Shown here piece by piece: positions 9,942 to 62,295 of a stretch of DNA of 64,000 nucleotides; positions within the stretch are counted from its first letter, which is position 1, and each line of letters begins with the position of its first letter. Under the pieces are notes generated by a model. The model saw only the letters and a list, made by a program, of their open reading frames with translations. It had not been told where the DNA came from and searched no databases. The DNA is from Sipunculus nudus (taxonomy: Eukaryota; Annelida; Sipuncula; Golfingiida; Sipunculidae): assembly GCA_026874595.1 (NCBI GenBank), contig CM049311.1:69419453-69483452 (forward strand), read 5' to 3'. The position numbers were made by a program, and so were the translations under genes.

Positions 9942-10340
9942 CATCAGTAGCACTACCTAAGGGAACATGATTTTGTACCTTAAGGAGTCATGTTCATCAG
10001 TAACACTACCTAAAGGAACATGATTTTGTACTTTAAGGAGTCATGTTCATCAGTAGCACTACCTAAAGGAACATGATTTTGGACCTTAAAGAAGTCATGT
10101 TCATCAGTAACACTACCTAAAGGAACATGATTTTGTACCTTAAGGAGTCATGTCATCAGTAGCGCTACCCAAAGGAACATGATTTTGTACATTAAGGAGT
10201 CATGTTCATCAGTAACACTACCTAAAGGAACATGATTTTGTACCTTAAGGAGTCATGTCATCAGTAACACTACCTAAGGGAACATGATTTTGTACCTTAA
10301 GGAGTCATCTCATCTGTAGCACTACCTAAAGGAACATGAT
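9942..10340 (+). repeat. 53-bp minisatellite, left part (about 7.5 copies)
   Basis: The unit is about 53 bp, starting CATCAGTAACACTACCTAAA and continuing with GGAACATGATTTTGTACC and TTAAGGAGTCATGTT. Each unit holds an inverted repeat AACATGA/TCATGTT around a CCTTAAGG palindrome. The array is cut at 10340-10343 by a large element and resumes at 12748. Confidence 0.92.
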
Positions 10341-10343
10341 TTT

Positions 10344-12747
10344 TAGCGAACCAGTGAGCTTATCAATCGTGTGGCGTCGTCCGGCGTCTGTACGTTAACC
10401 CATACTATCTTGAAAACGGCAAGCATTAGCATAACGAAATTTTATGCAAAATATTAGTCATCTGAAAAACTCTATCGGATTTTGCTTATTTTTTGGCTAA
10501 CTGCATTTTCTTAGATTTTATAAGGAAAAAAGCTAAAAAACCTTTAAAAATCTTCTTCTCCAAAACTGTTCAGCCAAATTGTCCAATATTTCACAGAAAT
10601 GATCCCTGGAACAATCTCTCTCAAGTTTGTTCAAATGGTTTAAGTTTGGTGATTTTTGGCCGAGTTACAGGAAGTTGAACTTAGTCATCTGTCCAAAAAA
10701 GCATACTAAAATTACAATCTCAGAAATGGCTTGAGCTATCATCACCAAATTTTATGCCAATGTTGGTCACATGAGTCATATCTGAAATTGAGGTATTGGT
10801 GGCGCCATCTGCATCAGCCTTTTTTGTACGGGGGTCATCAGTGCCCGTATCATACTGACAGCTACAAAAATCTTCTTCTCAAAAACCACTGGGCCAAATT
10901 CTTAAATCTCACACATTAATTATCCTTAGATGTTGATAATTCAAGTTTGTTCAAATGGTCTCAGTTCAGTGACTTTTGGCTGAGTTATGGGAAGCTGAAT
11001 TTAGTCATGTGCCATAACAGCCCGTGTAAGCTAAGTGGCTACAAAAATCTTCTTCTAAAAAACCACTGGGCCAAATTCTTAAATCTCACACATTAATTAT
11101 CCTTAGATGTTGATAATTCAAGTTTGTTCAAATGGTCCAGTTCAGTGACTTTTGGCTGAGTTATGGGAAGCTTAATTTAGTCATATGCCATGACAGCCCA
11201 TGTTAGCTAAGTAGCTACAAAAATCTTCTTCTCAAAAACCACTGGGCCAAATTCTTAAATCTCACACATTAATTATCCTTAGAAGTTGATAATTCAAGTT
11301 TGTTCAAATGGTTTTGGTTCAACGATTTTTGGCTGAGTTATTGGAAGCTGAACTTTGCCATTTTGCTGTATTTTCCCATATGAGTTATAAACCTACAAAA
11401 CGTTTTTCGACTGATGATACTGAGGCCAATTTGTTTAATATTTTGCAAGAATAATTCCCTGAATCATTCTAATTATAATTGTCTTTTATGGTTCCAAAAA
11501 ATGAATTTTGGCTGAATTATAAAGATTGAATTGAGTCATTTTACCATATATGTTAGCTGTGTGAAGCAGATACATCTAGCCTAGCACCAGTTTATCAGCA
11601 TCCATTACATCATGCCTCTAGACATTTAGATTTTAGAATATCTATGGAAAATATTGACAAGAATGTTTTTTAAAAGCTTTTAAAAAATGTAGATTTATGA
11701 TATTACATATCATCTGTACATTATTCATAATTTCTCAGGAATAGCAGGAGCTACCATCCCCAAATTTTATGCAATTATCAGTCACATATCAAATGTTGAT
11801 GGATTCAGCTTATTTTTGCTATCTGCATTTACTTAGATTTTACAGGGAAAAAGCTGATAAAAACTTCTTCTTCTTGTAAAGAGTCCAGCCAAATTGTTCA
11901 ATATTTTACAGAAATGATCCCAGAGGCGAGCCTTCTCAAGTTTGTTCAAATGGTTTGTGTTGGATAAATTTTAGCAGAGTTACATAACAGGCCAAGATTG
12001 TGTATGTTTCTTGAATAGGTTGAGAAACTGCCAACTGTTTCAGATTTGGCAACAGATCAAGAGTTCATTCAGTGCAGCCTGATTTAGGCCAAGAGTTCAA
12101 TCAGTGCAGCCAAGCACAAGGCATGTGATCACCTCATGGGCAGCATGTGATCATTTCATGGGTAGCATGTGATCACCTCATGAGTATCATGTGATCACCT
12201 CATGTTCATTCAGTGCAGCCAAGTACAGGTCAAAAGTTCACTCAGTCTAGCCAGGTGCAGGTCAAGAGTTCACTCAGTGCAGTAGCCTACGCCAGTAATT
12301 TGTCACAGTACACTCGGGGCAACAGCCTTTCTCACCAAAGCCTGGTCAGCCCGGTGCATCAGACTCAGACCTGATATTCTGACCTGTATGTGTCTTTAAT
12401 GGCTTTCTCGTTCACAAGAAAGGTGTCGCCATCTGCAATGACTTTTGCAAAGTGTATGTGCCTGCTTAATTCTATGGAGGAATTTGATATATCAGCCTGT
12501 AATTGGGCATATTTATACATGTCAAATAGCTTTGTCGTATACAAGACTGGTGGTGCCACCTACAATAATTTTTGTGTTGTGCGCACCCATGCCAGAATTT
12601 CAGCAGTGATGTTTGTGTATTGTTTCTTGTTCAAAATGTTTAGTACTTGCATTGTTCTTATATATGAAAAGTAGTGGTTCAGCATTGAAGCGTTATACCA
12701 GGTGTATATCCATTTGCACAGGTCCTCATTAGGCCTGTAGGCCTTGT
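10344..12747 (+). mobile_element. Tandem-cored repeat element, copy A (rolling-circle-like)
   Basis: Begins TTTTTAGCGAACC (some T's may belong to the target), followed by GTGAGCTTATC and a GGCGTCGTCCGGCGTC tract. It ends with a small hairpin AGGCC-TGTA-GGCCT followed by TTGT. The interior holds 177/176-bp tandem units starting at 10861, 11038 and 11214 (gctacaaaaatcttcttct), 22-bp units with TGATCA at about 12124-12205, and GGTGGCGCCATC-type motifs. No coding frame was recognised. It is inserted inside the 53-bp minisatellite with no visible target duplication. Copies B and C lie at 50566 and 60647. Confidence 0.8.
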
Positions 12748-13075
12748 GTTCCTTAAAGAAGTCATGTATATCAGTAAAACTACCTAAAGGAACATGATTT
12801 TGTTCCTTAAGGAGTCATGTTCATCAGTAACACTACCTAAAGGAACATGATTTTGTACCTTAAAGAAGTCATGTTCATCAGTAGCACTGCCTAAAGGAAC
12901 ATGATTTTGTACCTTAAGGAGTCATGTTCATCAGTAACACTACTTAAAGGAACATGATTTTGTACCTCATGGAGTCATGTCATCAGTAGCGCTACCCAAA
13001 GGAACATGATTTTGTACATTAAGGAGTCATGTTCATCAGTAGCACTACCCAAAGAAACATAATTTTGTACTTTAA
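12748..13075 (+). repeat. 53-bp minisatellite, right part (about 6 copies)
   Basis: Same unit and orientation as 9942-10340. It starts with GTTCCTTAAAG, which continues the interrupted unit of the left array (one intact unit here reads GATTTTGTTCCTTAAGG). The last copy ends near 13075. Confidence 0.92.
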
Positions 13076-14309
13076 GGAACAGTAAGATAACAAACACCAG
13101 CAGATACCATTGAGACTTTTAAGAGATATTCTGGGATGGTTACAGATGATATATTCATGGAACCATTAACTTTCATTGTTTTTAAATCTTGAATGGTTTA
13201 TTGCAAATTTCATAAGATGAACAAATATTATGTATTTTATAATGCTTCAACATTTATGAATAATTTAAACTGTAAATCAACTGTTACTTGAAAATCTTGC
13301 TGTATCAATTACAAATTTTTGTAAAGCTTAGAGCAACAAATAATAAAAAAATAAATCTGTGTATTGGTCATTGGGAAAAAATTTAGAGAATTATTGCCCG
13401 GAGTAATGTTGTTTTGTTGCATATCCTGAAAAAAAAATTATACAATTTTTTGCCAGATGATGTTCACCAACTGCAGGTTTCTCTGATTCCTAAACCATCA
13501 CCTTCACTAAAATAATTAAATTAAACAATGATGCTGCTACTGGCCACGAGTTCACCTGAATTTTGCTATGTTATGACCTTCAGGGTACAGATCAAAGGAA
13601 GACTTATGACCCATAGATTATTTATAGTTGTGTATCATACTGTATGTATTTATTTAAACACCTCATGTCCAAGAAGTTGGGTTGCAACTAATTTTAGTTC
13701 AAATGCTGCCTTAACATGGATATTATAAATTTAATCAGAACTTTTTATTTTCTCATTAATTTTAATTCTAGATTCAGGTGATTACAAACTTTATCAAAGG
13801 TATGTTAATAAAATAATTGAAATATTAATATGGCCAAAGGCTGAAATAGAAATGTCAGTGTACTGTATTTATTTTTTCTGAAGAAAACAAATCTCTGTAT
13901 TGTCATAGGTGTGACATCCATCTGTTTTCTCATTGATGTACTTGCATATCCAGGTTTTTAATTAATTTGCATCTTCAAGTGAGCATGTGTTATATATAGA
14001 TGACTTACAAGTCCAGGTATAGAAACATTGATATATTTTATTGTAATAATACAGCATGGATTTTATCAATTAAAAGTTAAAATACTTGCATCACAAGACG
14101 TGTTACTACCAGTATTAATTAATGGTAAATATAAGGTTATTTTCTGTTTATATATAGAGAGAAACTTCAGGGGAATGGTTAAAAATAAATATATAAAAAT
14201 ATAATTATCCAAGGACCTGTTTGTTCTGTTATATTTTAACCAATCAAATGATTTAATTTTCATGTATTATCAATTATTTTGTGTCCAATCAGAAAACTGA
14301 ATTAGCAGT

Positions 14310-14364
<55 letters not shown>

Positions 14365-15463: not shown

Positions 15464-16507
15464 TTTTTAGCCCTCAGCCCTTAGGCTGATAGGCTATTGT
15501 CGTCACCCAAGCTGTCCGTCCGTCCGTCCGTCCGTCCGGCGTCCGATAACTTTTACCTTGTGAGCGGGATATCTTGAAAAGGATTCACCGTCAGAATTTT
15601 ATTTCCTCGGTAAAGATGTATATCGACAAAATCTCAATCAAGTTCGAAGATGGGTGACCTTGACCTATTTTTCTACATTTTAGAGCTGATTATAGAAAAA
15701 CACTTAGATGCTTATTACTCAGGAACCATTTGGTGGATTTTCACAAAACTTACCATGATTATTGGGACTGATAATCTGTACCTGCTATACAAATTTGGTG
15801 GCGCCACCTACAATTTCTGATTTTTAATGAATTTTTATAGGATTTTTCAACTTTGGGCTTGTGAGCGGGATATCTCAAAAAGGATTCACCGTAAGAATTT
15901 TATTTTTTCGGTGAAGATGTATATTGACAAAATCTCGGTCAAGTTCGAAGATGGGTGACCTTGACCTATTTTTCTACGTTTTAGAGCTGATTATAGAAAA
16001 AACATTTAGAAGCTTATTTCTCAGAAACCATTGGATGGATTTTCACAATACTAACTATGATCATAGGGACTGATGGTCTGTAACTGCTGCACAAGTTTGG
16101 CGGCACCACCTGCAATTTCTGATTTTTTATAGAATTTTTCTTGGATTTTTCAACTTTTGCCTTGTGAGCGGGATATCTCTAAAAGGATCCACAATAGGAA
16201 TTTTATTTCTTTGGTGAAGATGTATATCGACAAAAATCTCGTTCATGTTCAAAGATGGGTGACCTTGACCTACTTTTCAAGGTCACAGAGCTTATAATAG
16301 AATAAAACTTAGAAGCTTATTTTTCAGGAAGCATTTGGTGGATTGTTATGAATCATGGTACATACCTCTCCATTTTAAATTTATAACTGAGACATGTACA
16401 GATATACATCCATGTGAGAACAGATATTTAGTACTTGTTACTGTTACCACCTCTAAACACGGTTCTTTGGGCTGAGGGCTTTTGTCAGCTTTTGCTGATA
16501 TTCTAGT
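15464..16507 (+). mobile_element. Tandem-cored repeat element D with Helitron-like 3' end
   Basis: Begins TTTTTAGCCC. A hairpin follows at once: TCAGCC (15474-15479), loop CTTA, GGCTGA (15484-15489). A (GTCC)n run lies at about 15511-15540. Three core units start GTGAGCGGGATATCT at about 15560, 15860 and 16163 (spacing near 300). The 3' end has the hairpin TCAGC-TTTT-GCTGA at 16485-16498, then TATT and CTAG at 16503-16506 followed by T. Each core unit contains TGACCTTGACCT. No coding frame was recognised. Confidence 0.78.
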
Positions 16508-28200: not shown

Positions 28201-31200
28201 TTAGACTAATGAAAGATTCATGCATGTCCTTTTTGGAGTTACCAATTAATATTATTTCAGTTCATGCCTATCACCCACATACTAATATTAACCCAAACAG
28301 CATAATAACTATAAATAGAAAGAAAATGCTAGGCATGCTGAACTGTGGGTGGTTTGATATGAGTAATATCATGTTTTGCTGGTCAGTCCATGGCTCAGCA
28401 TAGCAACCAATGAAATGAAACCCCTGATAGACGGAACCGTCCATGACGTCATTGCACTCATTTCTTTGAGCCATCATGCCTGCAGTGATTACAGTGTGTA
28501 GCCTGGTTCGGCCTTGCGTCAAAAGAAACCACAAAGCATTCATCAACACTTGTTGAGTACAGCATCAGACATGGGGGGCCCCCCCCCCCCCCCCCCCCGA
28601 GTCATCACGTTCACTATGGGGCCTGCTGTTAGGGGTTTACTGCTTAAATGTCTCAGTATATACACACCATTAACCAGGTCTTCAAGTGCAATTTAGAGTT
28701 ATCACTGCAAAATGTCTACCCCTACTGGTGTAGGAAGGGCACTGTAATTGGTCAAACTGGTTTACACACGGAGGTTCATTCATGTGGTCTAGAGCTTCAT
28801 TTAGCTCATCGCCAGTCATACTCTCGAATGTCTTCCCATTGACCCTGTCTCACAACTATGACGATAGTTGTGGGGGTGAACTGAATTCTTATATTATGTC
28901 TACAGGAAATGTGTCTGTGGTTACTTGATGTTGTTTGAGGAAATGTGTCATCTTTTTGTCTGACCTTTTGTAATTAGTATCATGTTCATATTATTTAAAA
29001 AATAGCATCCATTACCCCCCCCCCCCCATATCAACCTTGCTTTTGTCAGTAAGTCTCAGATGTGTCTTCAGTGATGGCAGTCATTTAATTACACCACTGC
29101 TACAGTTTACAAACTTAGTTGCAAATCTGTGTTTTGGTAAATCTGGAAATGTCTGACCCTTTTCTAAATATGTATTAAGCAATCATTCTGCAGTCACTCA
29201 CATTTTGTAAGATATACCAAAGAATATATATTTTATTGATATATCAAATATCTAGTATTGTAGTATTTGTATAGTTGAGCACTGCCTTTATCATAATGTT
29301 GAAACATTAAGTATGTAATATGCTGATTCCACAGAACATCTAAATATATCAAATTTAATCATAATGACACTGCTTTTAATAAAAAAAAATTTAATATGGG
29401 GTGGGGAATAAGATGGTCATAATTGATAATCAGTGATATGTTGAAATGTGATTTGAAATATGTTTTGCTTTGTTCATACATTATTGTGGCCCATGTGTAA
29501 CCTTTATTATGATGTGGATTTTTTGACTGCAGACAGACATCCTTTTTGTGGTTATTATTTAATCCCATATTGTAAAATGGTGAAAACAGGAAATTGCACC
29601 ATTGTTTGTGGAATAAAAGTTTGGTTAAGCCTCCTCATGGCTTCTACAGTTCCCCGGAATCAGAGATGGAATGTCAGATGAATCACTTTAGAATCCTGTT
29701 TCCATGGTAATCTGTCTGGGTTCCATGGTACGGACAGTAACCAGACCTCTTGGTAAATTTCCCTTTTCACCAGTGTGGTTGTATAGGAAGAAAAAAATAT
29801 ACTTGTATCCTTTGAAACTGCTCCAAAAAATCAGTTTTAGATCTTGGTACTCCACTATATATATTGGACATGCATTACTGAAATTATAATTTTATTCAAT
29901 AATATTCTGAAAAAAATAGGACAAATTTTGAAATTCATGAATACCTAGTTGAAAAAAAAAAATATGGTATTGATAGATTAAAAACTTGATGTGGTGGTTC
30001 CATTTGTAATTGTAAGCATCTTAATCCCACCCCCACCCCCTCATATATATTTATTTGTTATGATTAACTTTACAAATGCATTTATTGAACTCCCAAAAGT
30101 CAGTGTAATAAGACAAAGTTTTCTAACTAGTCAAAATCATTAGCTAGTACACCAGGCTTGCAATGAACCATAAATGTTTTACAAGTTTATCTGTTATTCT
30201 CCTAGATGAACATCAAAACAAACTTTTGTTTGTTTAAGACGAGTGTACATTTCAGCATAATGATAAGTGACAAATCGTGTTTTTATGCCCCCGCCACAAA
30301 GTGGCCGGGGCATATAGTTTTACCCATGTCCATCCTTCCGTCCTTCCGAAATCAAACAGTTGTACGGACTTTTTTTCGCAATACCTGCAGATATTGGCCT
30401 GATTTTTGGTGTGTGGGCAGATATAGACCAGTTACAGATCGAGTTCGCGTTTCGTCCCGGTTGACCTACTTTTGACCGTTTTACGGCTCCTGAACATAGA
30501 AAATTTCATGAAAAATATGAAATTTCATGACAAATACACATGTACAGACTTTTTTTCGCAATGCCTGCAGATATTGGCCTGATTTTTGGTGTGTGGGCAG
30601 ATATTGACCAGTTACAGATCGAGTTTGCGTTTCGTCCCAGTTGACCTACTTTTGATTGTTTTACGGCTCCTGAACATAGAAAATTTCATGTTAAATATAA
30701 ATTTTCATGACAAATACACTTGTACAGACTTTTCTTCGCAATACCTGCAGATATTGGCCTGATTTTTGGTGTGTCGGCAGATAATGACCAGTTACAGATC
30801 GAGTTCACGTTTTGTCCCAGTTGACCTACTTTTGACCATTTGATGGTGCTCTAACATAGAAAATTTCATAAAAAAGTGCACATATATGGACTTTTTTTCG
30901 CAGTGCCTGCAGATACGGGCCTGATTTTTGGTGTGTAGGCAGATAATGACCAGTTACAGATCAAGTTCTTGTTTTGTCCCAGTTGACCTACTTTTGACCA
31001 TTTGACTGCTCCTGAACATAGAAAGTTTCATGAAAAATAGAAATTTTCATAACAAATGCATATGTACTGACTTTTTTTCCTCAATGCCTGCAGATACCAC
31101 CCTAAATTTTTATATGTGGGCAGATAATGACAGTTACAGATCGAGTTCGCATTTCGTCCTGGTTGACCTACTTTTGATTGTTTTACGGCTCCTAAATATA

Positions 31201-34200
31201 AAAAATTTCATGAAAGACAGAAATTTTTATGGAAAATGCACATGTATGGACTTTTTTTCACAATGCCTGCATATACTGGCATGATTTTTGGTGTGTTGCT
31301 TGATAATGACCCGTTACAGATCGAGTTTGCATTTTGCCCTTGTTGACCTACTTTTGACCATACGACACCTCCTGAACTTAAAAAAATTTTTCAAAATTTT
31401 ACAAATGTTTCTAATTTGCCCCAGGCGGGGGCATTCGTGTCGTTCCGACACATCTAGTCTTTATCATCTTTCAGGGAAACAACATTATTGTGTTGAATTT
31501 AGTATAAGCTGCTTGACATGATTTTGCTGTTGTTAAGTGTACATTCCAGCAGATGAAGAATTTCTCTTAATTTTCACAATGTTTTGTGATTTTCTTGCAG
31601 GTGAACGGCATTGGTTATGTCCTGAATGTAAGCAACACCTGTCCTAAACCCCCTCATATCCAGGACAGTCACTTCCTACGCATTCCAGTCAATGACAACT
31701 ACTGTGACAAGCTTTTACCTTATTTCCAAGATGCATTCCAGTTTCTAGGTAAGTACAGTCATTTGCTGAAGTATAAACATTTATGTATGGTTTGATTACG
31801 TGAATGCAATTAATATAGGTCTAGTGAGATAATTAAGATTATCTGAAATTACATGAAACCCAAGTTGTCAAAATACAGTGGAACCCCGCCTTGCGACCAC
31901 CCCACAATTGCGACCACCCCACAATTACGACCATTTTGCTTGGTCCCAAATTTTTTTTAGTTTATTTATGTTTAAAAATGACTCAAAATTACGACAACCC
32001 CTGAATTCAGAATTACGACCAGATTTCCTGGCCCCAGCGCTAATGTGACCCCGCTAATGTGACCACCGCCGAGAAGTACTGAAACAACATTTGTCACGAG
32101 TCAATAGCTGTGTCTTGTCACAGGCGCCTTATACGAAAGATCAAAGCGGGTAACAAGGTTTCTTAACCCGTGTGTTAATCTGGTCCCGCATATCTTCCCG
32201 ACTAGGTGTCTTCCCTGAGACTTGTTGAGGTGTAGGTTATAGATCAAAGAGGGTAACCATCGGCCTGATTACTGAATGAGCCGGTCTGACCTGGGGTCAG
32301 ATGCTAATTGCCCCTCAGTGATCACCATTATTACAGCTACCCTAAGTGTGGGGTTGCGGGCATAATATTTCAACTCATCACATATTGTTCGATCCTCATT
32401 GGTAAAATTAACGACCTAGTTAATCCTAAATGTTTTCCTACCTTACTGACACTGAGTAATGAGCAGTCAGTGAAATGTATAAATAAAGCTTGCATAGGGG
32501 GAAAATCCTTCACATTAACTTGCCTTTTCTGATAGATCGTTGTCAGTTTATTTCTCTACTGGTTCATTTAAATTGCTTGCTGTTAGGCAACCATGCCTCT
32601 AAAAGAGCTCTCCTTGAAGGATAAAGTGGTGTTATAATCAAGGCGGCAACACCACGCGCAGTCAGCACCAAATGGCTCAGCAGTTTAGCGTCGGGAAAAC
32701 TCAAGTGCATGCAATATATACTCAAGCAGAAGGCTGAATATATGACAGCCACGTATTATGTTCAATATGCATTCAGTAGGTTGTAATCATATTGCCTTAG
32801 TGTTATTATTTGTTAATCATCAGTCACTACGTATGTGTACATGTATATTAATTTTTATCATGAATAAATATGTATAGCTACACACAAAAAAACATTCATA
32901 ATAAGGATCCTCCGCTAAGTAAAATATTTTGTTATAATTCACATTAAAGATATGCAATAGATAAGCTCTGATACACATTAAATATCTGAGTGCTATATGC
33001 GACCACGGTAAGAGTTTCACAAATATGACCACCCCCAAATTAAGACCACTTTGCTCAGTCCCCAGGGTGGTCTAAATTGTGGGGTTCCACTGTAGTGTGT
33101 TCAAGGAGAAAGTTGCTGTGGACCACTATAAATTTAGTTCAACAGACAAATTCTCACAGGAGCTTAAAAAGTGCCCTGAAAAGCACTTTTATTTTTGGAA
33201 TTCTGATAGTAAAAATTTGTGGTGTACTCTGTCCATCTTGATGACCTGCATTGGCAACATTACCTGGATTATTTATTCAAACATTTTATTTTGTAAGGGG
33301 AGAAATAATCAAGTTTGTGCTCTATGAGAACCATAGAAAGTGCTTGAAATTTGCTTAAAGTGAATTCTGCATAAAGTATATTTTTACCCTGGCCAGGCCA
33401 TAAATAAGATAATATTTAGTCACATGATGAAGCCAAAAATTTTTAATCATTTATAAGTCTCAGTGTTTAAACATATTAAGCTTACATACCAGTATATGCT
33501 TTTCATTATTGCACAGCAGTAACCCTCTGTATTTCCACCAGAAAAAAAGAACAAAAAACATGAAATAAGATGCCTATTTTAACCTAGTATTTTCCCTACG
33601 TAATGCATACTTCAGACAGGGGAGTGCATATTATCACAGTGTGGACAGGGGCTTTCAAAAGAATCACTGTAGCTATAATCGGACCACTGTCAGTATGGCC
33701 ACATGGGCATCTCTTATATAACACACCCAGGCTTGGACTGACATCTCAGAGCAGAGAACTTGTAAGGAAAAAGTAACATGATGGTGGTGTTTGTTGGCTG
33801 TTTGGAAACAGATTTTCTCAAACCAGTATTACTGTATCAAGTATATAAACTTTTATATATTTTAGCAGAATTGAAAAAAAAAATCATTCCTTGTATCAAA
33901 ATAAAATTCTTCATGAATTATTCTAAAATTTTCTGACATAATTTATTATGCTTCTATTCTCTGGCATATCCAGTGTATACCAACATAAACAAAAAAACTG
34001 TAATTTTTAACTAGTTGTATTTCCATTGATAGTATTAGTTCTAATAAATTATAACATGCAGTTGATTTTGATGAAATTCTGTCAGATTTTACAAATTTCA
34101 AGAGTTACAAGGAGTAATTATGGAAATATCTGAAAAATATTGCATTGTAGTCCAGCAAACAATACAGTACAATATCTAGGCTTTACACACTGCCTGGGGA

Positions 34201-37200
34201 GACCCTCAGAACCATTACTCTGGCATCATCAGCTGGCCACCCAGTGGGCAGGTGGATGCTCCATTTGTCCCAGAGGCTGGTGACTCATTGTCTAATTATT
34301 TGCCAGGCTGTCACTGGACAACCATAAACTGTAGCTACATGGTTTTGTAAAGAGCTTTCAAGGTACTGCCTAATATTAACAATTAAGTAAGCATCGGGCT
34401 TCCAGTAGTTAAGCTCATATGAAATAACAAATTACTTGTCCCGCTTGTCATATAACTTGCCAAAGCCAGTCCGATTTTGTCTCCTTTTGGGACCAATAAA
34501 CCCAGATTGCATTGTAGCAGCCACTATGGCTCTGTGAATAATTTATACCAGTACAAAAGGCCTTTTCGCCTAATCCTCTGGAGTGGAAACTGACCAGCGG
34601 CCAAGCTCGTGATGGTTTCTGGGAAACGCGATATATAGGAAGGTAGTCCAATTAGTGGACGCATATAACATAATGCATTTGCTACGTTCAGTCTGAATCA
34701 ATGAACGGATGTAAGGCTAGAAGCAGCAGAATAATAACAAGACTGAGGTCCTATTGGAAATCAATGTTATATATAACACAGCATGTTCGTATTACACAAT
34801 CAGCATCATTTTAGCAGTGTTTGTGGTTAGGGTGCTATACCTTAAACACTATGATTAGAGTGCAGAACTTGTCGGCTTGATCAAAGGCTTTGTCAAACTC
34901 TTAAATAAGCATCACTCTGCATTAAAACATTCATGTTCATTGGCAGTTAAAAAAAATTTCAGTTCTTTCCTGCTCTTTAAGGTTTGCCACTGTTTAAACA
35001 CTATACATGCAGATGGTTTAGTTTGCCATATTTATTTATCAGGCATGCATTGCTTTGGTCCAGACAAATCATGGCCATGAGTCCCAAGTTTGAATCAACA
35101 AATGGAACACAAGTTTTTACACCAGTTCCAGTTCTGAACCAACAGAGGTAGTTTGTCATTACCTACAGACGAAGGTGAAACACATTGATTTTGTACATTG
35201 TGTATAGTGCCGCAGTGTTATTGACTGTTTGCCTTCGCTGTGTCAGAGTTTGATTTTGAGACTAACGCCTCGGTGGGTGATTATCCATCGCACGTGCAGG
35301 CAGACATCACATGGGGGTAATATTTAAACAAATTAGCTTCCTGTGACACCTCATTTGAGCTCTAAAGACAAAAGGAATGACAGGAACAATGCGTAATTGA
35401 GTTGTACTGTGACTCACCAATCACACAAACAATCTTGTGACCAATGCCTTGCTGGACTGCAATCAAATAGTGGCATGGTCAAATAAACCTAATGGTCCCA
35501 AATATAGGTTCCTTTTGTGATTTACAAGTCTGTTTTTGCATGTTTCATCACTTCAGCTGTTGGCGACAACAGATTAAGAGATCTTGATACCATGAATCAA
35601 GAACTTAACAGCGCAGTCAAAAGCCCTACTGAAATCAATGGACTTAACATGGTGTGTGTGTAAAATACTTGACGGATCAATTACCAATGCTTGGTTTTTC
35701 CATAAAACCTACAAATAACTGTTTAACAGCAGGGGAAAATCCTGGCTAGTGGGGTTGCAGGACACTGGAAGAAGAATAAGGGGGTATGATTCATGTGTGT
35801 AATGTTGTGTCATTGACTTAATATGAGCCCCCGGCCCCCTTGAGAACCATTCAGGTTTCTTTATGGGAGTTTAGTCGATCTATGAATGCACTTCAAAGGT
35901 GCCAAGTAAAGGACAACAGAATGACTTTAACTGTTCCAGTAATTGGACCACACATGCCACTGGATTAATAATGGCATTGTTTGACAAGTAAATGTTAAAC
36001 ATTGATGCTTTAGAACAAGGATTACACATCTTTTATGAAAAGAAAAAGCAGTGATTGAAGTTGCCAGTTTATAATCTGTAGCCATTACTTTTTAGCTCAG
36101 TTGACTATAAGTCATCTAAGCTATAGTCGTGGTCCATTGTCCGTCGTCCGTCCATCTGTCCGTCCGTCTGTCTGTCCGTCCGTCTGTAGATGTGGCACGT
36201 TTTGAAACCGTAAGACCTAGGAATCCAAAATTCGGCATAATGTTAGATGTCCCCAAGATCTCCTACCAAGCCGAAAACTGGGTCTTTGCAACTTTGTTCC
36301 TTTGAGAAATTAAGGAAAAACCTCGATTTTTGATTAAAAACCTATTTTCACACTTCAGGACTGCCTAATATCAAAACCACTCATCTGTTTTTCCTCATAT
36401 TTACCATAAATATTCCTCTATATAGTTCCTATGTACATGCCAGAAATTATGTCTGTATTATTTAATTTAAAAAAAGTTATGGGCCCAAACATAATGCATT
36501 TTGTAAAAAATCAGGAAAGATATTTGATCACTTAACACAAAACATGTTAAAGCTATGGACCTTTTTTCCAGTAATATAACTTTAATTAATCAAAATTGAA
36601 TTGTATACCCAAAATTAGATGAAAATCTTTTGAATTTTTTAAAATATTAATAAAAATAAAAAATTGGTTCCTTAAATTTTGCCCAACTTTGACCATGGCA
36701 AGTTTTTTTCCTGTAAGTGCTGTGGATTTAATTTTCACAGCATGTTTTTGTTAGCATTTCAACTGTTAACACCAAAAATTTGAAACCAGTTGATAAAAAA
36801 CTGTAGATTTTATTCAAGTTTTCAAGCACCATGTAACATATTGTTTACATCAAGCTAGTGTTATGCAGTTTGCAAGAGCTCAGATCCCCAGCTCCAGCTC
36901 TAAGTTCCTTAAATTCGGCATACAGTTAGATTTCTTCAAAATCCCCTACCATGCCAAGAATTTGGTCACTAGGACTTAATACCTTCGAGATAATAATGAA
37001 AAACTTCATTTTTCCATTAAAAACCCATTGTTACACTTCAAGACTGCCTAATATCAAAACCACTGATCTGACTTTAATCATAAATAATATACATATTTTT
37101 CATTCTCTATGCACATGCCAGAATGATGTCAGTATTGTGTAATTGTTTTAAGTTATGGGCCCAAACATAATGCACTTTGTAAAAAATCAAGAAATATATT

Positions 37201-40200
37201 TACTCCCTTAACAAGGGGATTGCTGAAGCTAGAGATTTTTTGTCAGGGATGTAACATTATTTAATCAAGATTCAATTGAATACCCAAAATTAGCTCTGAA
37301 TTTTTCAAATTTTATAAGTTATTAGTATAAATGTAAAATTAGTAACTTAAATTTTGCCCAACTGACCATGGCACGTTTGTTTCCCGTGAGCACTGTTGAT
37401 ATAATTTTCATATCATGCACACATAAGGATTTCAGCTTTTTAGTTTAGAAAGCTGAAAGAAATTGGCCAAAAATTGAAGCTTTTATTAATGTTTTTTATG
37501 AGACCCTGTCAGACTTTGGCTCTCTCCAGCCCCTTTTGAGTCACCTGTATTATGCATGCTTGAGGCGAGGCATACACGGAATCCAGGCAGCTTATGGCCA
37601 GCCACAGTTGATCCTGGTGTCCAACCCAACTCATCTAGTAGTTTTAACCAACAACATAACAATAAACAATAAATTAATAAATTTTTATTGGTTTTTAATA
37701 ACAAATTAAAGAAAAATAGAAAAGGAATTTGTTATTTTATAATAACAGGAAATTAACTTGCAGTTACTGATGATATAAGAATCTCGTATCGATGGGTAGA
37801 ATGTCACGTATTCCACATAACACCATGCAGTCACCTATGGCATTTTTCAGTTCAATTTTAATGATAAAGAAGTAAATCATATTATTCATTACTAATCATT
37901 AGGGATCATATGAAGGAAATTAATGATAGACAAAGATGCAGTTGATAATATTAATCTAGATTCCTACTGTGTCTAGTGTGTACATTGATGTGAAATTAGT
38001 CCAAAATGAATTTTTTACAGTTATTTTTTAATATAAATAAAAGCCATAAAACCAGGTACTTATGATCATTATTTAAATGTGTGAATTTTGTATATTCTGG
38101 ATTCTCAACATCATTGTTTGGTGAAAACTGAATAAATACCAGACATGGTGCGAATACTTTGTAATTGTATTTAAATACGAATATGATTATGTACTCCATT
38201 ATAAAATTTCTTGCATAAAGAATGGGAATTAGGTAAAAATGAAAGTATATGAATACTTGTGCAAATACTTTCAAAATGTATTCATGAATGTATTCATGAA
38301 TATATTCTTTAATATTATTTTAATAATCATTTCAGTTATATTTCTTTTTAAAAAATCATATGATTCTCTTATTATTTTTAATAAAAATTATATTTGGGAC
38401 AATATTTGTAATTTTTTTAATAAATAGTTAAAATCTTATATGTTCTGCTTATAAGTTATATGGCCAAGTCAAAATCTGTGTGACAATAGTACTCCATTTG
38501 TTAATAAAATAAATGAAATCTATCCTCTTCCCTGTCTCCAAAGGTACTATCAAATTCATACATAAGCTAAACAACAACAACTCATAATACAGCTTATATT
38601 TATTACCACACAAAACCAGCATGTGCCTCATTTCTAAATAATATTTTTTTATCATATATAACAGCTGAGCGTCATGACCCATAGGTCCCTTGTTTGTTTT
38701 GCAGTGGTAAATTTAAAACAATAAATGACCAAAATATTAAAAGAAACACATTACACCCTTAACCACCTGACCTTAACTATGGATAGACTCTTGCACTTGA
38801 TGTATGTCCAGTGCAGTGTCCAGAACATGTGGCAGTGAGCAGTAGATGCTGTTGTTTATTTTAAGCCCTTCTTGTGTCTTTTTCATATGTAACAAGTTGG
38901 TCTGAGAACATATTTACCCTTGGCTGGTGGATGAATGGAAAGGGACTATGGTTATGAGGACTGTAGATGTGAGATTACTCAGGCTTCCCTGTCTTTTATT
39001 CTGAGCCTAGCACTTTCTTTTTTGTATATTTTGGCAGTAGATATTCAAGACTTTCCAGCAGTTCATGCTTTCACAAGAAAAGTTTAAACAGAAAATAAAT
39101 GTTTATCAAGCCTAAGGCAAAGTCTAGTACAGGATATGGTTTAATGAATTTACAGCAGGCAGTCAAGCACTTTATGGGTAGCTCTGTTTGGTAATGATGT
39201 TGGGTGCATGGGCGGGTTTGGGGTAAGGTGTTAGAATGAGAGTTTCCATGAAACAGGGGGCTCTATCAGAACCCACAACTAATGGGTGGAGTGATTCAGC
39301 GGTGACCCAGGATTAGCTGAGAGTTCAGTGCAATTAATTGAAGTTCCTAAGAGTGTTTGTTAATTAGCAGTGCATCTGTTTCGTAAGTGACTCAGCCTCC
39401 CTATTATAGAGCTCTAGGTTCCTGCTAGTTCAGCCTTAATTAATTCTGAGCTGACGTTCTTATCCTGGCCATGATGGCCCCCAGTGTTAATCAATTGTCA
39501 ACTAACCTAGGCTCCTCACAGGAGATAGTTCATGCCTTACTACTACAGTCTTAGATCAGCCCTGGGGCAGGTACCAATAGCTCCCTAGGGGGTCCAGGAG
39601 AAAACCAAATGAGCACTGGATGTAACTGATTCCACGGACAGGTTAAAGTGAGCTGTCTTACACTAGTGACACCTGGTGGCATCAGCAGTAATCTTCTTTT
39701 GCATCTGCTCCAGGATATGCTGAGACCAATGTTTATGACTAATTACTTGCACATATGGTTTTCTCTGCATTGCAACTCTATAAAGAACACCCAGCATTTA
39801 ATACTGTTGAGTGAGCCATAAACACTTAGTCTTGGTTCAGATGGAATTTTTCATTGATTTTGATTGGTTAATAAATGGAATAGCTTTAAATTTAACAATA
39901 TTACATGTGTAACTCTAATAAGGGTAGATAATGGTATCGAGGCCATATAACCTGAGTTGTTACAGATAATTTTATGGTTTATATGTTAGTTATTGGTATT
40001 AACACAAAATAAAGGCCCTGCAGAGGAGTAGCAAAGAAGTGTAAGCTTATTTTCACCATTTGACCTCCCAGCTAAACATAGTAAAGGTCCTCAGCTCATG
40101 TCTCCTCAAGAAAGTTGAAGAAAAACCTTTCTAGTTGAAGAGAATTCTGATGCAGAAAGTAAAGAGGTTAAGCAAATTAGGCTCCACTGTCTGTTTTATC

Positions 40201-48451: not shown

Positions 48452-49420
48452 TTATTAGGTCCCTGCTAAAGTAAGCGGATCCGATTTTGTAATCACCGTG
48501 TCTGTCTGTCTAATACTCTTTCTATATGTCTGTCAAATTTGTTTCCTGATGATAACTCCAGTTTGAATTGACATATGGATTTCAAACTTGACTTAAATAT
48601 GACCCACCTCTAACGCAAGAACTCTATTTATTTTTGGGTCATGAGGTCAAGGTCACCCAACCCACTTATTAAGAAAGAATTATGATGGATTTAAAGCCAA
48701 GCTTTTCATCCCTAACCTTCCATCTTCCACAAATAGCTGACTTGCCAATAGGGGAATAACCTGATTGATATTGCGGTCACAATGTCAAAGGCCGTGGTCA
48801 CAGGAGCCATCTGTCCGCATATTTGTTTTTTACGGATGATAACTCTAGCTTGGATTTACATATGGGTTTCAAACTTAACTTATATAAGACCCACGAATAA
48901 TGTAAGAACCCTTTTGATTTTGGGATCATAAGGTTTAAGCCTAAGGTCACAGGATCCATTTATTTAGAAAGACTGTGGATGCATTTTAAGCCAAACATTT
49001 CATCCCAAAACCTTCCATCTAACACACATAGGTGTCCTGCAAACAGGAGATGAACCTGGTTAATTTTGGAGTCACAAGGGTAAAGGTCAATCTCACTGTG
49101 GCCACTTGCCACAAATTTGTTTCTGAAAGATAACTCCAGTTTTTGGATTAACATATTGGTTTCAAACTTGGATTTATATATGGCCCTGCCACCTATAGAG
49201 AATGAACCATTTTTAATATGAGGTCAAAGGTCAAGGTCACAGGGTTATAGGCGTTTTCCAGTATTATCTCAAATTACAGTCTGAATCAGGATTTTGACTG
49301 AAACACATCCCGATCAGGGTTTGGACTGGTCAGATTCTCGATTCGGATTTAGTCTTGAGGTTATAAAAATATTCTCAAAATCAATTTCAGCTCAGCGCCG
49401 TGTCCCATGGGTCCCTTGTT
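48452..49420 (+). mobile_element. Tandem-cored repeat element G
   Basis: Begins TTATTAGGTCCCTGC with a short GTCTGTCTGTC run. Three core units of about 290 bp start near 48541, 48828 and 49118, each with gataactccagttt and tggtttcaaacttg. It ends with CCATGGGTCCCTTG at 49418, the same kind of end as element F. AGGTCAAGGTCA lies at 48644-48655 and AGGTCAAAGGTCAAGGTCA at 49221-49239. No coding frame was recognised. Confidence 0.7.
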
Positions 49421-49834: not shown

Positions 49835-50120
49835 GGTGTTGTAATGATTAAGGTTCCGAGCTCATGATTGAGAGATGATGAGTTCGATTCCCAGGCAGAC
49901 CCCGATCGTGCCAAGGGACCTTGGGCAAGGTACTAACCGCAAGTATGCCACTCTCCACCCAGCAGTAAATACTGGGAAGGAAACCTGCGATGGACCAGCG
50001 TCCCATCCAGAAGAAATTTCACTCCTAAGAATTTCACGCTACAGAAACCGGGATAAGCTCCGGCCTGATGAGCAATGATAGGCTCGGGCGTAAAAGCCCA
50101 ATGTCACCTTCTGTTCACTC
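49835..50120 (+). mobile_element. tRNA-derived SINE with L2-like 3' part
   Basis: The B box AGTTCGATTCC is at 49881-49891, preceded by a degraded A-box region (GGTGTTGTAATGATTAAGG). Next come ccttgggcaaggtactaacc and caccc-agcagtaaatactgg, strings typical of CR1/L2-related SINE tails. Then comes gcgatggaccagcgtcccat, common in L2-type 3' ends. The end near 50120 is imprecise. Confidence 0.65.
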
Positions 50121-50565
50121 CCGAGGTCTTATAGTCTAGACCTAAGTTTGTTACCTGTTACTGTCATATGTTATAGTGTCCTTAGAGTTTTCCTCTTTAC
50201 CGACTTTCCTCTTTAGCCTACGGACTTTCTCCGCTCTGGCCCTCGCTATTTTCCCACACACGAACACAATATGCTGACTACCGGATTTTTTTATCATTCA
50301 AATAAACACAAAGATGGTTGCATGGTAACTAAATGAGTTGTTTAAAATACCAATCCTATGTACACTAATGAACAATAGTCAATTATGTTTAATGTATTTG
50401 ATAGATATTATAAATGTAAGCAGCATAATGACCCATCTCACTTCATCACTAATTCTTCATTTAAAACCATGAGCGAATTAGAGAAGACTTAGCAGATAAT
50501 ATTCTGTATATAATATATTGACCGATAAACACCGTACAAGAGATTTTCTAAATAGCCTTGATTAT

Positions 50566-52816
50566 TAGCGACCCTGTGAGCTTATGCGATTGTGTGGCGT
50601 CCGTATACCATAACCCATACTATCTCAGAAACGGCAGGAGCTAGCATCGCTAAATTTTATGCCAAAAAAAAAAGTCATAAAAAACTGGCTACAGGAAGAT
50701 GAACTTAGTTATTGGCCAAATAAGAATACTAAAATTACAATCTCAGAAATTGCAGGAGCTATCATTACCAAATGTTGCAAATGTTGGTCACATGAGTCAT
50801 ATTTGAATATGAGGTATTGGTGGCGCCACCTGCATCGACCTTTTTTTACGGATGTCATTGGTCATCAGTACATCAATCCATATTTTCTCAGGAAGGGCAG
50901 GAGCTATAGCATCCCCAAATTTTAAGCAAAAATTACTCGAGTTACAGGAATTTGAAAATAGTCAATTGGCCAATAAGCACTATAGCATAACAATCTCAGA
51001 AACGACAGAAAGGAGCTAGCATCACCAAGTTTTATGCAAATATTGGTATCATGAATCATATTTGAAATTGAGGTTTTCTGGCGCCACCTGCATCGACTTC
51101 CAATTTACAGGGAAAATGCTAGTAACCTTCAAAAAACCTTCTTCTACGTAACTGTCCAGCCAAATTGTTGAATATTTCACAGAAATAATCCCAGAAACAA
51201 TCTCTTTTAAGTTTGTTCGAATGGTTTCAGTTCAGAAATTTTTGACCGAGCTACAGGAAGATGAACTTAGTTATTGGCCAAATAAGCATAATTACAATCT
51301 CAGAAATGATAAGAGCTATCATCACCAAATGTTATGCAAATGTTGGTCACATGAGTCATATTTGAAAATGAGGCATTAGTGGCGCCACCTGCATCGACCT
51401 TTTTTGTACGGATGCCATCGTTCATCAGTACATTAATCCATATTTTCTTAGGAACAGCAGGTGCTCTAGCATCCCCAAATTTTAAGCAAAAATAAGTCAC
51501 ACGTCAAATGGGATTGAGCAATTTTGTTCATATGATAAGAGTTTGGATGAATGTTGGCCGAGTTACAGGAATTTGAAAATAGTCAATTGGCCAAGTAAGC
51601 ACTATAGCATAACAATCTCAGCAACGACAGAAAGGAGCTAGCATCACCAAGTTTTATGCAAATGTTGGTTTCATGAATCATATTTGAAATTGAGGTTTTC
51701 TGGCGCCGCCTGCACTGACTTCCATTTTACAGGGGAAAAGCTAGAAACCCTTCAAAAATCATCTTCTCCGAAATCACTCAGCCAAATTGTTCAATGTTTC
51801 AGAGAAATGATCCCAGAGACGAACTCTCTCAAACTTGTTCAAATGATTCGGGTTGGCCAAGTAACAGGAATTTGAGCATATAGTCCATTGGGCATGTAAG
51901 CATACTAACATAACAATATCAGAAACGGCAGGAGCTAGCATCACCAGGTTTTATATTAATGCTGGTTAAAGGAATCATATTGGAAACTGATTTTTTTTCT
52001 GGCGCCAGTTGCATCGATATGTTTTTAAAGGGCAAAACATTTGTAATTTCATATGCATGCTAAATCCATGAATAAAATATATCTTTATTCTGATTTTGCT
52101 TTCAATGGGCATGATTATTCTAGACATTTTGATAAATAATAATCTTCTGAATATGCTTAAAAAAAGCACTAATGCCAAAGTCTCTCAGTATATGTATAAA
52201 CAGATTTTGCAACATGCGAAGACTTTGTCTATATCAATGAACAGCTTGGCAGACTGCCAACTATATCACATTATGCAACAGATCAAGAGTTCACACACTG
52301 AAGTAGCTGCACCTGCATGGTACTTTAGTTTCGGTTCAGTGAGGTGGGCAACAGCCTTCCTCAGCTGAACTTGGTCATCCCAGTGCACCTGACTCAAGAG
52401 AAGTTTGATGTATCTGCCTGAAATTTGGGCCTGTCCATGTATCTTTGATGGCTTTCTCGTACACAAAACTGGTGTCGCCAGATACAATGCTTTGCAAAGT
52501 GTATGTCCCTGCTTATTTCTCAAAAGGGATTTGATATATGAGCCTGAAATTGGGCATATATATACATCTCGGATTGCTTCTTCATATACAAGACTCATGT
52601 CGCCACCTACAATGAATTTTGCTAATTGTGTATCCCGGCTTGTTTCTCAGGAGGGATTTGATGTATCAGCCAGAAATTGGTTATATCTATACATCTCGGA
52701 GAGTTTTGTTGTATAGAAGACTTGTGACGCCACCTACAATTTTTTTTTCTACTTACGTAGCATTATACCTAATGTATATCCCATTGCACAGGTTCGGAAA
52801 AAGGTCTGCAGGCCTT
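50566..52816 (+). mobile_element. Tandem-cored repeat element, copy B
   Basis: Begins TTAGCGACCCTGTGAGC and ends near GGTCTGCAGGCCTTGTT, the same termini as copy A with substitutions. Its core repeats the block ctcagaaa-ggcaggagctatcatcaccaa several times (about 50730, 51000, 51300, 51610, 51920). GGTGGCGCCACC lies at 50819-50830 and GTGGCGCCACC again near 51380. The last 500 bp repeats a unit ending in cgccacctacaat about three times. It is more diverged than A and C are from each other. Confidence 0.75.
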
Positions 52817-53066
52817 GTTATTATTTAATTTTGTTCAGTATAATGTTTTGAGAATAAATTCACACCAGGAATGTTTGGCAGCACAACCATGGTCAAAATA
52901 TCTCCATGGCTGTGAACTTGTGCGATGTCAGATACATATCCATCATATAAAGAAGACCATAAAATCATCAAGGAATATGCAACGTAATGATGTTACCACT
53001 TTGTATGCATCACACCAGTCATTCGCTAAAATATACACTGGTGTAAAACATGTTGCTAACCACGTA

Positions 53067-53440
53067 GGAATTTATTAGACAATCACAATGTTCTTTAATT
53101 AAATTTAGTGAATATCCGTCAAATATTTGCTAATGTATACATGTATTTGAAATTAAACTTTCACGTAAATGCTCGCATGTTACTATAAAAATAAACACAA
53201 AATGTCAAGGTTACGCCACACAAAGGGGGGTTGTCGGTGGGTTTGAACTAAGAGGAATTTATTAGACAATCACAATGTTCTTTAATTAAATTTAGTGAAT
53301 ATCCGTCAAATATTTGCTAATGTATACATGTATTTGAAATTAAACTTTCACGTAAATGCTCGCATGTTACTATAAAAATAAACACAAAATGTCAAGGTTA
53401 CGCCACACAAAGGGGGGTTGTCGGTGGGTTTGAACTAAGA
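53067..53440 (+). repeat. Perfect 187-bp tandem duplication
   Basis: Bases 53067-53253 and 53254-53440 read identically from GGAATTTATTAGACAATCAC to GGTGGGTTTGAACTAAGA. The junction has no gap. The sequence is unlike its flanks and has no coding frame. Confidence 0.95.
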
Positions 53441-58949: not shown

Positions 58950-58950
<1 letters not shown>

Positions 58951-59000: not shown

Positions 59001-59002
<2 letters not shown>

Positions 59003-59609: not shown

Positions 59610-59768
59610 GATAATTATTATTATAACAATAGCAAAAATAACAACTATAACAACAACTGCACAAAAACAACAACAACAACACGCTAATAATAATAAAAAT
59701 AATAATAAAAATAATAATAATAAATATGATGATATTAATAATAATAATAATAATAAAATAATAATATT
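59610..59768. repeat. (AAT)n/(ACA)n-rich low-complexity tract
   Basis: Purine-rich trinucleotide sequence, with CAA units then AAT units. It borders the 43-bp minisatellite. Confidence 0.9.
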
Positions 59769-59784
59769 TTTGAATATCCCACTT

Positions 59785-60560
59785 ATTCTGTGCTAAGTTT
59801 GTCTGTGCCGTTTCTGTATGTTCCATTAATTCTGTGCTAGTTTTGTCTGTGCTATTTTTGTATGAGCCTTACATTTGTGCTATAGATTTGTCTGTGACTT
59901 TTTGTATGTGCCATTTATTCTGTGCTAGTTTTGTCTGTGACATTACTGAATATGCCATTAATTCTTCGCTCTTTTTTTCTGTGCCGTTTTTGTATGTGCC
60001 ATGCATTCTGTGCTAGTTTTGTCTGTGACATTTTGTATGTGCCATATATTCTGTGCTAGTTTTGTCTGTGACATTTTGTATGTGCCATTTATTCTGTGCT
60101 CGTTTTGTCTGTGACATTACTGAATATGCCATTAATTCTTCGCTCTTTTTTTCTGTGCCATTTTTGTATGTGCCATTAATTCTGTGCTAGTTTTGTCTGT
60201 GCTATTTTTGTATGAGCCTTTCATTCTGTGCCAGTTTTGTCTGTGACATTTTGTATGTGCCATTTATTCTGTGCTAGTTTTGTCTGTGACATTTTGTATG
60301 TGCCATTTATTCTGTGCTAGTTTTGTCGGTGGCATTACTGAATATGCCATTAATTCTTCGCCCTTTTTTCTGTGCCATTTTTGTATGTGCCATTTATTCT
60401 GTGCTAGTTTTGTCTGTGACATTTTGTATGTGCCATTTATTCTGTGCTAGTTTTGTCTGTGACATTTTGTATGTGCCATTTATTCTGTGCTAGTTTTGTC
60501 TGTGTCATTTTGATTGTGCCATTTATTCTGTGATATAGTTTTGTCTGTGATATTTTTGTA
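59785..60560 (+). repeat. 43-bp minisatellite, about 17 copies
   Basis: The unit is about 43 bp: GTGCCATTTATTCTGTGC, TAGTTTTGTCTGTGACATT, TTGTAT. Variants with TACTGAATATGCCATTAATT and TTCGCTC occur three times at a regular higher-order spacing, suggesting block duplication. It ends about 85 bp before inverted element C. Confidence 0.92.
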
Positions 60561-60646
60561 GTGCCACTTTGCCACGCCCCATTATTTAAACATTTACGAT
60601 CATGTAATCCTAATGTTTCAACTTATGTTGTGACAAAATATTTGAA

Positions 60647-62291
60647 CAAGGCCTACAGGCCTAATGCGAACCTGTGCATATGGATATACACCAGGTATAA
60701 CGCTTCAATGCTGAACCACTACTTTTCATATATATGAACAATGCAAGTACTAAACATTTTGAACAAGAAACAATACACAAACATCACTGCTGTAATTCTG
60801 GCATGGGTGCACACAACACAAATATTATTGTAGGTGGCACCACCAGTCTTGTATACGACAAAGCTATTTGACATGTATAAATATGCCAAATTTCAGGCTG
60901 ATATATCAAATTCTTCCGTAGAATTAAGCAGGCACATACACTTTGCAAAAGTCATTGTAGATGGCAACACCTGTCTTGTGAACGAGAAAGCCATTAAAGA
61001 AACATAGACAGGTCAGAATATCAGGCCAATACATCAAACTTACCTTGAGTCTGATGCACGGGGCTGACCAGGCTTAGGTGAGAACGGCTGTTGCCCCGAG
61101 TGTACTGTGACAAATTACTGGCTCAGGCTACTATACTAAGAGAACTCTTGACCTGCGACTGGCTAGACTGAGTGAACTTTTGACCTGTACCTGGCTGCAC
61201 TGAATGAACATGAGGTGATCACATGATACTCATGAGGTGATCACATGCTACCCATGAAATGATCACATGCTGCCTATGAGGTGATCACATACCTTGTGCT
61301 TGGCTGCACTGATTGAACTCTTGACCTAAATCTGGCTGCACTGAATGAACTCTTGATCTGTTGCCAAATCTGAAACAGTTGGCAGTTTCTCTACCTATTC
61401 AAGAAACATACACAATCATGGCCTGTTATGTAACTCTGCTAAAATTTATCCAACACAAACCATTTGAACAAACTTGAGAAGGCTCGCCTCTGGGATCATT
61501 TCTTAAAAATATTGAACAATTTGGTTGGACTCTTTACAAGAAGAAGAAGAAGTTTTTTTCAGCTTTTCCCCTGTAAAATCTAAGTAAATGCAGATAGCAA
61601 AAATAAGCTGAATCCATCAACATTTGATATGTGACTGATAAATGCATAAAATTTGGGGATGGTAGCTCCTGCTATTCCTGAGTAATTATGAATAGTGTAC
61701 AGATGATATGTAATATCATAAATCTACATTTTTTAAAAGCTTTTAAAAAACATTCTTGTCAATATTTTCCATAGATATTCTGAAATCTAAATGTCTACGG
61801 GCACTGATGACCCCCGTACAAAAAAGGCCGATGCAGGTGGCGCCACCAATACCTCAATATCAGATATGACTCATGTGACCAACATTGGCATAAAATTTGG
61901 TGATGATAGCTCAAGCCATTTCTGAGATTGTAATTTTAATATGCTTTTTTGGACAGATGACTAAGTTCAACTTCCTGTAACTCGGCCAAAAATCACCGAA
62001 CTTAAACCATACGAAGAAACTTGAGAGAGATTGTTCCAGGAATCATTTCTGTAAAATATTGGACAATTTGGCTGAACAGATTCGGAGATGAAGATTTTTT
62101 AAGCTTTTTTAGCTTTTTCCTTATAAAATCTAAGAAAATGCAGTTAGCCAAAAAATAAGCAAAATCCGATAGAGTTTTTTTAGATGACTAATTTTATGCA
62201 TAAGATTTCGTGATGCTAATTCTTGCCGTTTTCAAGATAGTATGGGTTAACGTACGACCACACACCATCGCATAAGCTCACAGGTTCGCTA
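60647..62291 (-). mobile_element. Tandem-cored repeat element, copy C (inverted)
   Basis: On the minus strand it begins TTTTTAGCGAACCTGTGAGC at about 62295 and ends CCTGTAGGCCTTG at 60647. It is closely similar to copy A over its whole length, but lacks the block corresponding to A 10850-11617 (about 770 bp). The 22-bp TGATCA units are at about 61215-61290. GGTGGCGCCACC is at 61836-61847. Confidence 0.8.
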
Positions 62292-62295
62292 AAAA

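Follow-up and report, generated by a model that had tools for sequence, protein, structure and literature searches.

The 64,000-nucleotide stretch of Sipunculus nudus contig CM049311.1 considered here (hereafter the window; coordinates are positions within it, and element ends are given in the sense of the element) carries repeat elements with tandem cores, which we discuss in relation to HINEs, i.e., short non-coding, non-autonomous Helentrons. Such repeats are genuinely present at the coordinates listed in the original prediction, a reading of the same DNA made beforehand that had described several unrelated repeat families. Based on sequence comparison, the seven elements are grouped into five families, A (three copies), B, C, D, and F (Table 1). 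This number agrees with the five core lengths, but the elements at 10340, 50564, and 62295 belong to one and the same family A. Two long pieces of A1 and A2 are 92–94% identical, A2 being devoid of ~760 bp that contain the 176-bp array, and A1 and A3 have common pieces of at least 150 bp at 69–87% identity. Core units of 176, 300, 690, 180, and 290 bp had been proposed; Tandem Repeats Finder (TRF) reports 176, 301, 180, and 287 bp, and the unit of family D appears as a ~680-bp repeat in a self-BLAST match (74% identity over 595 bp). Two of the three family A copies are located in, or ~80 bp from, a minisatellite array (53-bp units at 9941-13079; 43-bp units at 59766-60566).

The elements begin with TTAG or TTATG and end in CT(A/T)G, which is followed by a T. 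The string TTTTTAGC, named as the 5′ start at 10340, 15464, 36089, and 62295 (minus strand), is present at all four positions. In the whole window, 13 occurrences compare with 4.5 expected, and four of the 13 are element ends. Its leading T's are mostly target DNA. Consequently, TTTTTAGC and TTATTAG, which had been treated as separate starts, exist as strings but represent a single 5′ end, TTAG, behind differing target bases; the 5′ end of C (TTATGC) deviates from those of the other families. At the 3′ side, the expected CTAG-T or CTTG-T was recovered as CTAG/T in B and C and as CTTG/T in A1, A2, A3, and F (the slash marks the element boundary), but D has no supported 3′ end, as no matching subterminal repeat was found near 37641, where its end had been placed. 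A T follows in all six elements with a called 3′ end, which is not independent evidence because the ends were chosen partly by CTWG/T. The 3′ boundary of F is supported by a second copy of this end (38662-38692), which stops at the same base; the pattern used to search for it was built from the two copies.

A1 interrupts a 53-bp tandem array, and its empty site is therefore known. Besides the unit that is split, 12 of 13 array units read GATTTTG and one reads AATTTTG, with four T's in each of the 13. The left flank of A1 has five T's ahead of AGC, and on the right CTTG is followed by T and GTTCC. When the flanks are joined with the element taken as TTAGC...CTTG, they match two of 12 units (10066 and 12840) at 51 of 55 positions without gaps, and the other ten at 34–37. 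Inspection of empty sites for target duplications had been suggested as a check; at this site the insertion shows no gap and no target duplication of at least 2 bp, one T being ambiguous, and it lies in a T run.

Subterminal inverted repeats (subTIRs) were identified in B (12/12 positions), C (11/11), A2 (11/11), and A3 (9/10), and in B, C, and A2 the 3′ copy ends 19–26 bp inside the element. No subTIR was found in A1 at up to two mismatches, nor in F at up to two mismatches with CTWG/T within 55 bp; under the latter settings the sole match for D belongs to the F-type end at 38662. Hairpins were evaluated by counting how many of 200 shuffles folded equally well. By this measure, 5′ hairpins are strong in B (0), C (0), and D (2) and absent in A1, A2, A3, and F (181, 133, 179, and 54). 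A short 3′ hairpin had been ascribed to all elements. It is clear in B (2) and C (3), and A1 and A2 carry a palindrome (8 and 18 for their 3′ folds, the best fold of A1 pairing bases outside the palindrome), but the folds of A3 (104 and 119 in two frames of the stretch) and F (148) are weak, and none was found at the claimed end of D (63). Nor is the GTCC/CTGT tract common to all elements, as had been stated: family A has none, a regular expression finds GTCY tracts in B, D, and F only, and a degenerate TCCATCCTTCCGTCC tract is discernible in C by eye. As D and F miss tested HINE features, we class them as HINE-like only. A generic end scan of the whole window (perfect 10-mer subTIR, hairpin, and CTWG/T) yielded 16 rows at five distinct loci, three of which are B, C, and A2, compared with a mean of 1.7 and a maximum of 6 rows in 40 shuffles. 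The scan supports these three elements because its loci coincide with elements that have tandem cores.

We estimate a probability of about 0.9 that the elements are HINEs, which autonomous Helentrons elsewhere in the genome copy in trans through their Rep/helicase. Judged by the repeats alone, the DNA would be that of an animal, probably a mollusc. The earlier proposal of one rolling-circle machinery of the Helentron type mobilising different cargo fits these observations, as the anatomy corresponds to that of published HINEs (PMC4067079, PMC7492417) and A1 shows no duplication longer than 1 bp. In the Cg_HINEs of the oyster Crassostrea gigas (Vojvoda Zeljko et al. 2020, PMC7492417), as here, an 11–12 bp subTIR with an inverted copy, a 5′ inverted repeat, and a GTCY microsatellite are combined with a tandem core, a subTIR at the 3′ side, and a palindrome; the targets are T-rich (TT), and there is no target site duplication (TSD). 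Their families are likewise unrelated in ends and cores, and the autonomous partner is unresolved in the oyster too. Unlike the Cg_HINEs as described there, the window also has core units of 127, 287, 301, and ~680 bp besides those of 176–180 bp, and its family A is without a GTCY tract and a 5′ inverted repeat. Helentrons and their relatives DINE-1 and HINE-Mo (Thomas et al. 2014, PMC4067079) are similar in having subTIRs near the 5′ end, a 3′ palindrome, a preference for TT, a variable number of T's, and no target modification; their sequences differ, and the distance of the 3′ subTIR from the end is larger (38–60 bp in HINE-Mo vs. the 19–26 bp above), although perhaps measured otherwise. 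A modular build with short arrays of core repeats is also reported for the pearl elements, DTC84, and MgE of bivalves (~160 bp there, some related to the BIV160/Cg170 satellites; PMC7492417, PMC5139131). With BIV160 represented by two published primers only, bivF matched best antisense in D (27), then on both strands of A1 (25 each), and bivR matched nothing. The HINE type is already described from oysters and other animals, and the elements here add members to it.

If the elements are HINEs, a Helentron Rep/helicase would presumably be responsible for their movement. By analogy with the published family, nicking would take place at the T-rich end, one strand would be displaced up to a stop at the 3′ hairpin, and insertion would occur into a T-rich site, with the tandem cores carried along as passengers. 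The assignment places five repeat families, two of them only HINE-like, under one described transposon type, with exact ends and one clean empty site.

In line with this assignment, among the 16 open reading frames (ORFs) of at least 75 amino acids (aa) that overlap the elements, none of the 10 searched reached a Pfam cut-off. Rfam and tRNA scans returned nothing. Several results weigh against the assignment. Pfam searches of 22 ORFs or exon pieces, which form part of the ORF list of the window, revealed no Rep/helicase or other Helitron-type domain. The empty site is a single one, that of A1, where a 1-bp duplication of T with an element starting TAGC is possible and fits equally well. Shifting the right flank by one base raises the mean match over the 12 units (40.4 vs. 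38.5 of 55), with a best value of only 46; the array has two length variants, one base apart (CCTTAAAGAAGTC and CCTTAAGGAGTC), and we attribute the higher mean to the right flank of A1 being of the longer variant, like 10066 and 12840. The locus count of the generic end scan is by itself within chance. Moreover, D and F are without part of the defining HINE anatomy, the subTIRs of A1 and A3 are degenerate, and family A has no 5′ hairpin.

Other transposon classes account for fewer of these features. Canonical Helitrons (5′ TC, 3′ CTRR, insertion between A and T) have a 3′ hairpin and no TSD, B and C combine a 3′ hairpin with CTAG, and oyster elements mixing features of both kinds are reported (PMC7992393). 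However, all seven elements start with TTAG or TTATG instead of TC, the terminal CTTG of A1, A2, A3, and F departs from CTRR, and the target of A1 is a T run rather than an A–T junction, so that a canonical Helitron identity appears highly improbable. We give even less credence to the notion that the elements resemble miniature inverted-repeat transposable elements (MITEs), moving by cut and paste with a transposase acting on the inverted repeats. In B, C, and A2 the 3′ inverted repeat stops 19–26 bp short of the element end and A1 is without a duplication other than the possible single T, even though the elements are short and non-coding, inverted repeats are present, and bivalve pearl elements were formerly termed MITEs (PMC5139131).

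Table 1 Repeat elements, associated arrays, and the aligned core unit in the window (a slash marks an element boundary)
Feature	Positions	Strand	Junctions	Characteristics
HINE family A, copy A1	10343..12746	+	GATTT/TTAGC...CTTG/TGTTC	5′ TTAGCGAACC; 176-bp core 10860-11352; 3′ palindrome AGGCCTgtAGGCCT; CTTG/T
HINE family A, copy A2	60647..62292	-	GATTT/TTAGC...CTTG/TTCAA	11-bp perfect subTIR GCGAACCTGTG / CACAGGTTCGC; 3′ palindrome; CTTG/T; without 176-bp core
HINE family A, copy A3	50565..52817	+	GATTA/TTAGC...CTTG/TTATT	Degenerate subTIR 9/10; 127-bp tandem units 52473-52740; CTTG/T
HINE family B	15467..16506	+	GCTTT/TTAGC...CTAG/TTACA	12-bp perfect subTIR AGCCCTCAGCCC / GGGCTGAGGGCT; 5′ hairpin; GTCC tract 15514-15537; 301-bp tandem core; 3′ hairpin; CTAG/T
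HINE family C	30283..31457	+	TGTTT/TTATG...CTAG/TCTTT	11-bp perfect subTIR ATGCCCCCGCC / GGCGGGGGCAT; 5′ hairpin; 180-bp tandem core; 3′ hairpin GTGTCGttcCGACAC; CTAG/T
Family D (HINE-like)	36092..37495	+	ACTTT/TTAGC (5′)	5′ end TTAGCTCAGTTGACT; 5′ hairpin; GTCY tract ~36132-36187; two ~680-bp units; 3′ end not established
Family F (HINE-like)	48455..49418	+	TGTTA/TTAGG...CTTG/TTTAG	5′ end TTAGGTCCCTGC; GTCT tract 48500-48511; 287-bp tandem core; 3′ end CCCATGGGTCCCTTG/T; no recognisable subTIR
Second copy of family F 3′ end	38662..38692	+		Stops at identical CTTG/TTT; 29/34 positions alike
53-bp tandem array, left part, split by A1	9941..10342			TRF range 9941-10343
53-bp tandem array, right part, split by A1	12747-13079			Supplies native empty site
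B core unit aligning with A core units	15709..15815	+		Module CTCAGGAACC, box TGGCGCCACCTACAAT at +81; second copy ~16011-16118

The interiors of the elements had been said to differ completely, which is doubtful. D and the 176-bp unit of A show no relation (their hidden Markov models, HMMs, found nothing better than E 2.2), but the cores of A and B seem remotely homologous in the same orientation, and that of C perhaps as well. At up to three mismatches, TGGCGCCACCTNCAAT matches 15 times in the window, always in A (13) or B (2) and in element sense (1.06 expected); many of the A matches are copies of each other within A. In 12 of the 15 cases, comprising both families, this box lies 79–81 bp behind a called module, and in the other three the nearest module is 192, 402, and 551 bp away, modules being called by a position-specific scoring matrix (PSSM) trained on A, B, and C. 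A second box, GGTGACCTTGACCT, is found 80 bp behind a module in two of three cases in B and is inverted in F, at 88, 105, and 528 bp.

With an HMM of nine A units, two matches alone fall under the inclusion threshold, both in B: one of 107 bp at 21.8 bits (E 5.4e-6; reached in 0 of 100 shuffled windows) and one at 11.6 bits (E 0.0074; reached in 2 of 100). Four of the nine units had been found by a PSSM built in part from sites of B and C. Clean HMM tests gave weaker scores. Nine units gathered within A, starting from the 127-bp array, place B at the top (9.5 bits, E 0.04; equalled by 1 of 100 shuffles), and with five A units, found by a simple pattern inside A, B takes the top two ranks (13.6 bits and 13.3 bits; E 0.002), a result equalled by 1 of 100 shuffled windows. 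Conversely, the top four matches of B monomers in TRF phase lie in A (10.6 bits; E 0.0063; equalled by none of 100 shuffles) and the next one lies in C, each of them in element sense. When the B monomers are divided, the second halves have their six best matches in A, in element sense, and a seventh on the opposite strand of A2; the first halves match C best (E 0.087), followed by F in inverted orientation (E 0.15). The HMM of F has its best match outside the elements and matches 2–4 in B, on the opposite strand. An exact 16-mer with AGGTCAAGGTCACC is located in F (48644-48659), and its reverse complement occurs in all three B monomers (15653-16271).

Scoring matrices gave a mixed picture. Outside A, the A-only PSSM scored best in B (16.2), C (10.3), and again B (10.2). 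Shuffles of single elements reached the respective best score in 0 (B), 3 (C), 32 (D), and 42 (F) of 300 cases, and shuffled windows reached 16.2 in 13 and 10.3 in 119 of 150. A PSSM from B and C has its seven best matches in A and the eighth outside, with 28.7 reached in none of 150 shuffles, but it is not independent because its B and C sites were picked with the A matrix. PSSMs from A+B and A+B+C place non-element sites first, and matches 3 and 4 of the B-only PSSM lie outside the elements.

Some of these results detract from a relation between the cores. The stronger scores (21.8 bits and 28.7) overstate the case, as units or sites were picked using the other family. A clean HMM of C monomers places B first (7.0 bits, E 0.13), a score equalled by at least 5 of 100 shuffles. 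An expectation-maximisation (EM) motif search over nine cores at width 50 was not significant (126.2 with 60 starts and 134.4 with 150, vs. a null mean of 116.9, s.d. 4.6, and maximum of 127.4 with 60 starts), nor was that at width 30; at width 40 the score was above its null, but two of the sites come from family A. Taken on sequence evidence, kinship of the A and B cores is likely, and a link of C to B is suggested by rank only. The cores of A and B, and possibly C, seem to descend partly from one old unit of ~130–150 bp, though the ends of the families are unrelated.

Chance or common base composition is an improbable source of this likeness: in all four clean searches the best match falls within the other element and follows that element's sense, and all 15 box matches fall in A or B, even if each clean test stands at only ~1 in 100 shuffles and A-only PSSM scores such as 16.2 are frequent in shuffled windows. 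Later exchange of segments between elements (filler DNA) instead of common descent deserves more weight, and we place it somewhat below even odds. In its favour, the TGGCGCCACC box is confined to A and B, B and F share the exact 16-mer in opposite orientation, and oyster elements with related flanks but unrelated monomers are on record (PMC7492417). However, A and B can be aligned for ~107 bp without a change of orientation, the spacing is nearly constant (79–81 bp for 12 of the 15 box matches), and identity is low, which suggests old divergence. Segments conserved among otherwise different core monomers are recorded for oysters (PMC7492417) and for the BIV160/Cg170 satellites (PMC5139131), so that the core likeness extends a known pattern.

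A bolder version of common descent, which we consider unlikely, is that Helentron families have an old core in common despite unrelated ends, one consisting of a degenerate 40-bp module (~TCTCAGAAA...GGA...AAATTTGG) and a box ~79–88 bp further on, kept for a function in the element, e.g., protein binding or as an aid to replication. The box may then take the form TGGCGCCACCTACAAT in A and B and GGTGACCTTGACCT in the other half of B, with a looser form in C by eye and an inverted one in F. The first box may resemble a CTCF core, and the second may resemble paired nuclear-receptor half-sites. The module-box layout may also exist in repeats of other animal phyla, a lead that was borne out by no search. 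In open-access full texts, the box and module strings retrieved only a 12-mer in a study of bacterial chitinase, the other literature searches not being worded for the box pair. Two patterns modelled on fish or invertebrate repeats gave nothing in viral contigs, and four further strings gave nothing in the literature. Of six loosened element patterns searched in collections of prokaryotes, viruses, and plasmids, five had no match (three in viral contigs, two in genome contigs). The sixth matched one viral contig in a stretch that is coding-like by eye and reaches 3.7 bits (E 0.46) with the A-unit HMM, which we take as a chance match. If the core likeness held over more families, bivalve satellite-like repeats, now seen as independent captures, would be descendants of one old Helentron-carried unit, and this would bear on the origin of dispersed satellite DNA.

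The window contains several further features. A gene resembling dual-specificity phosphatases is represented by two exon-like pieces, one at 31601-31747 and the other within 41899-42996; their Pfam DSPc matches (E 2.9e-7 and E 2.9e-5, respectively) stay under the curated whole-domain score. Between them, an element with terminal inverted repeats (31874-33094) carries TACAGTGGAACCCC inverted at both ends with TA outermost, and its interior, judged by eye, presumably holds remains of a pogo/Tigger-like reading frame. The stretch 49830-50170 resembles by eye a tRNA-derived short interspersed element (B-box-like GAGTTCGATTCCC), for which ARAGORN reports no tRNA. Tandem repeats outside the elements include a 48-bp unit present ten times at 23066-23543 (96% matches; open frames of 162 and 148 aa on the two strands) and a 187-bp sequence in two tandem copies at 53066-53440, whose 100% identity indicates either a very recent event or an assembly artefact. 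A 59-bp tandem array at 63177-63997 reaches the end of the window.

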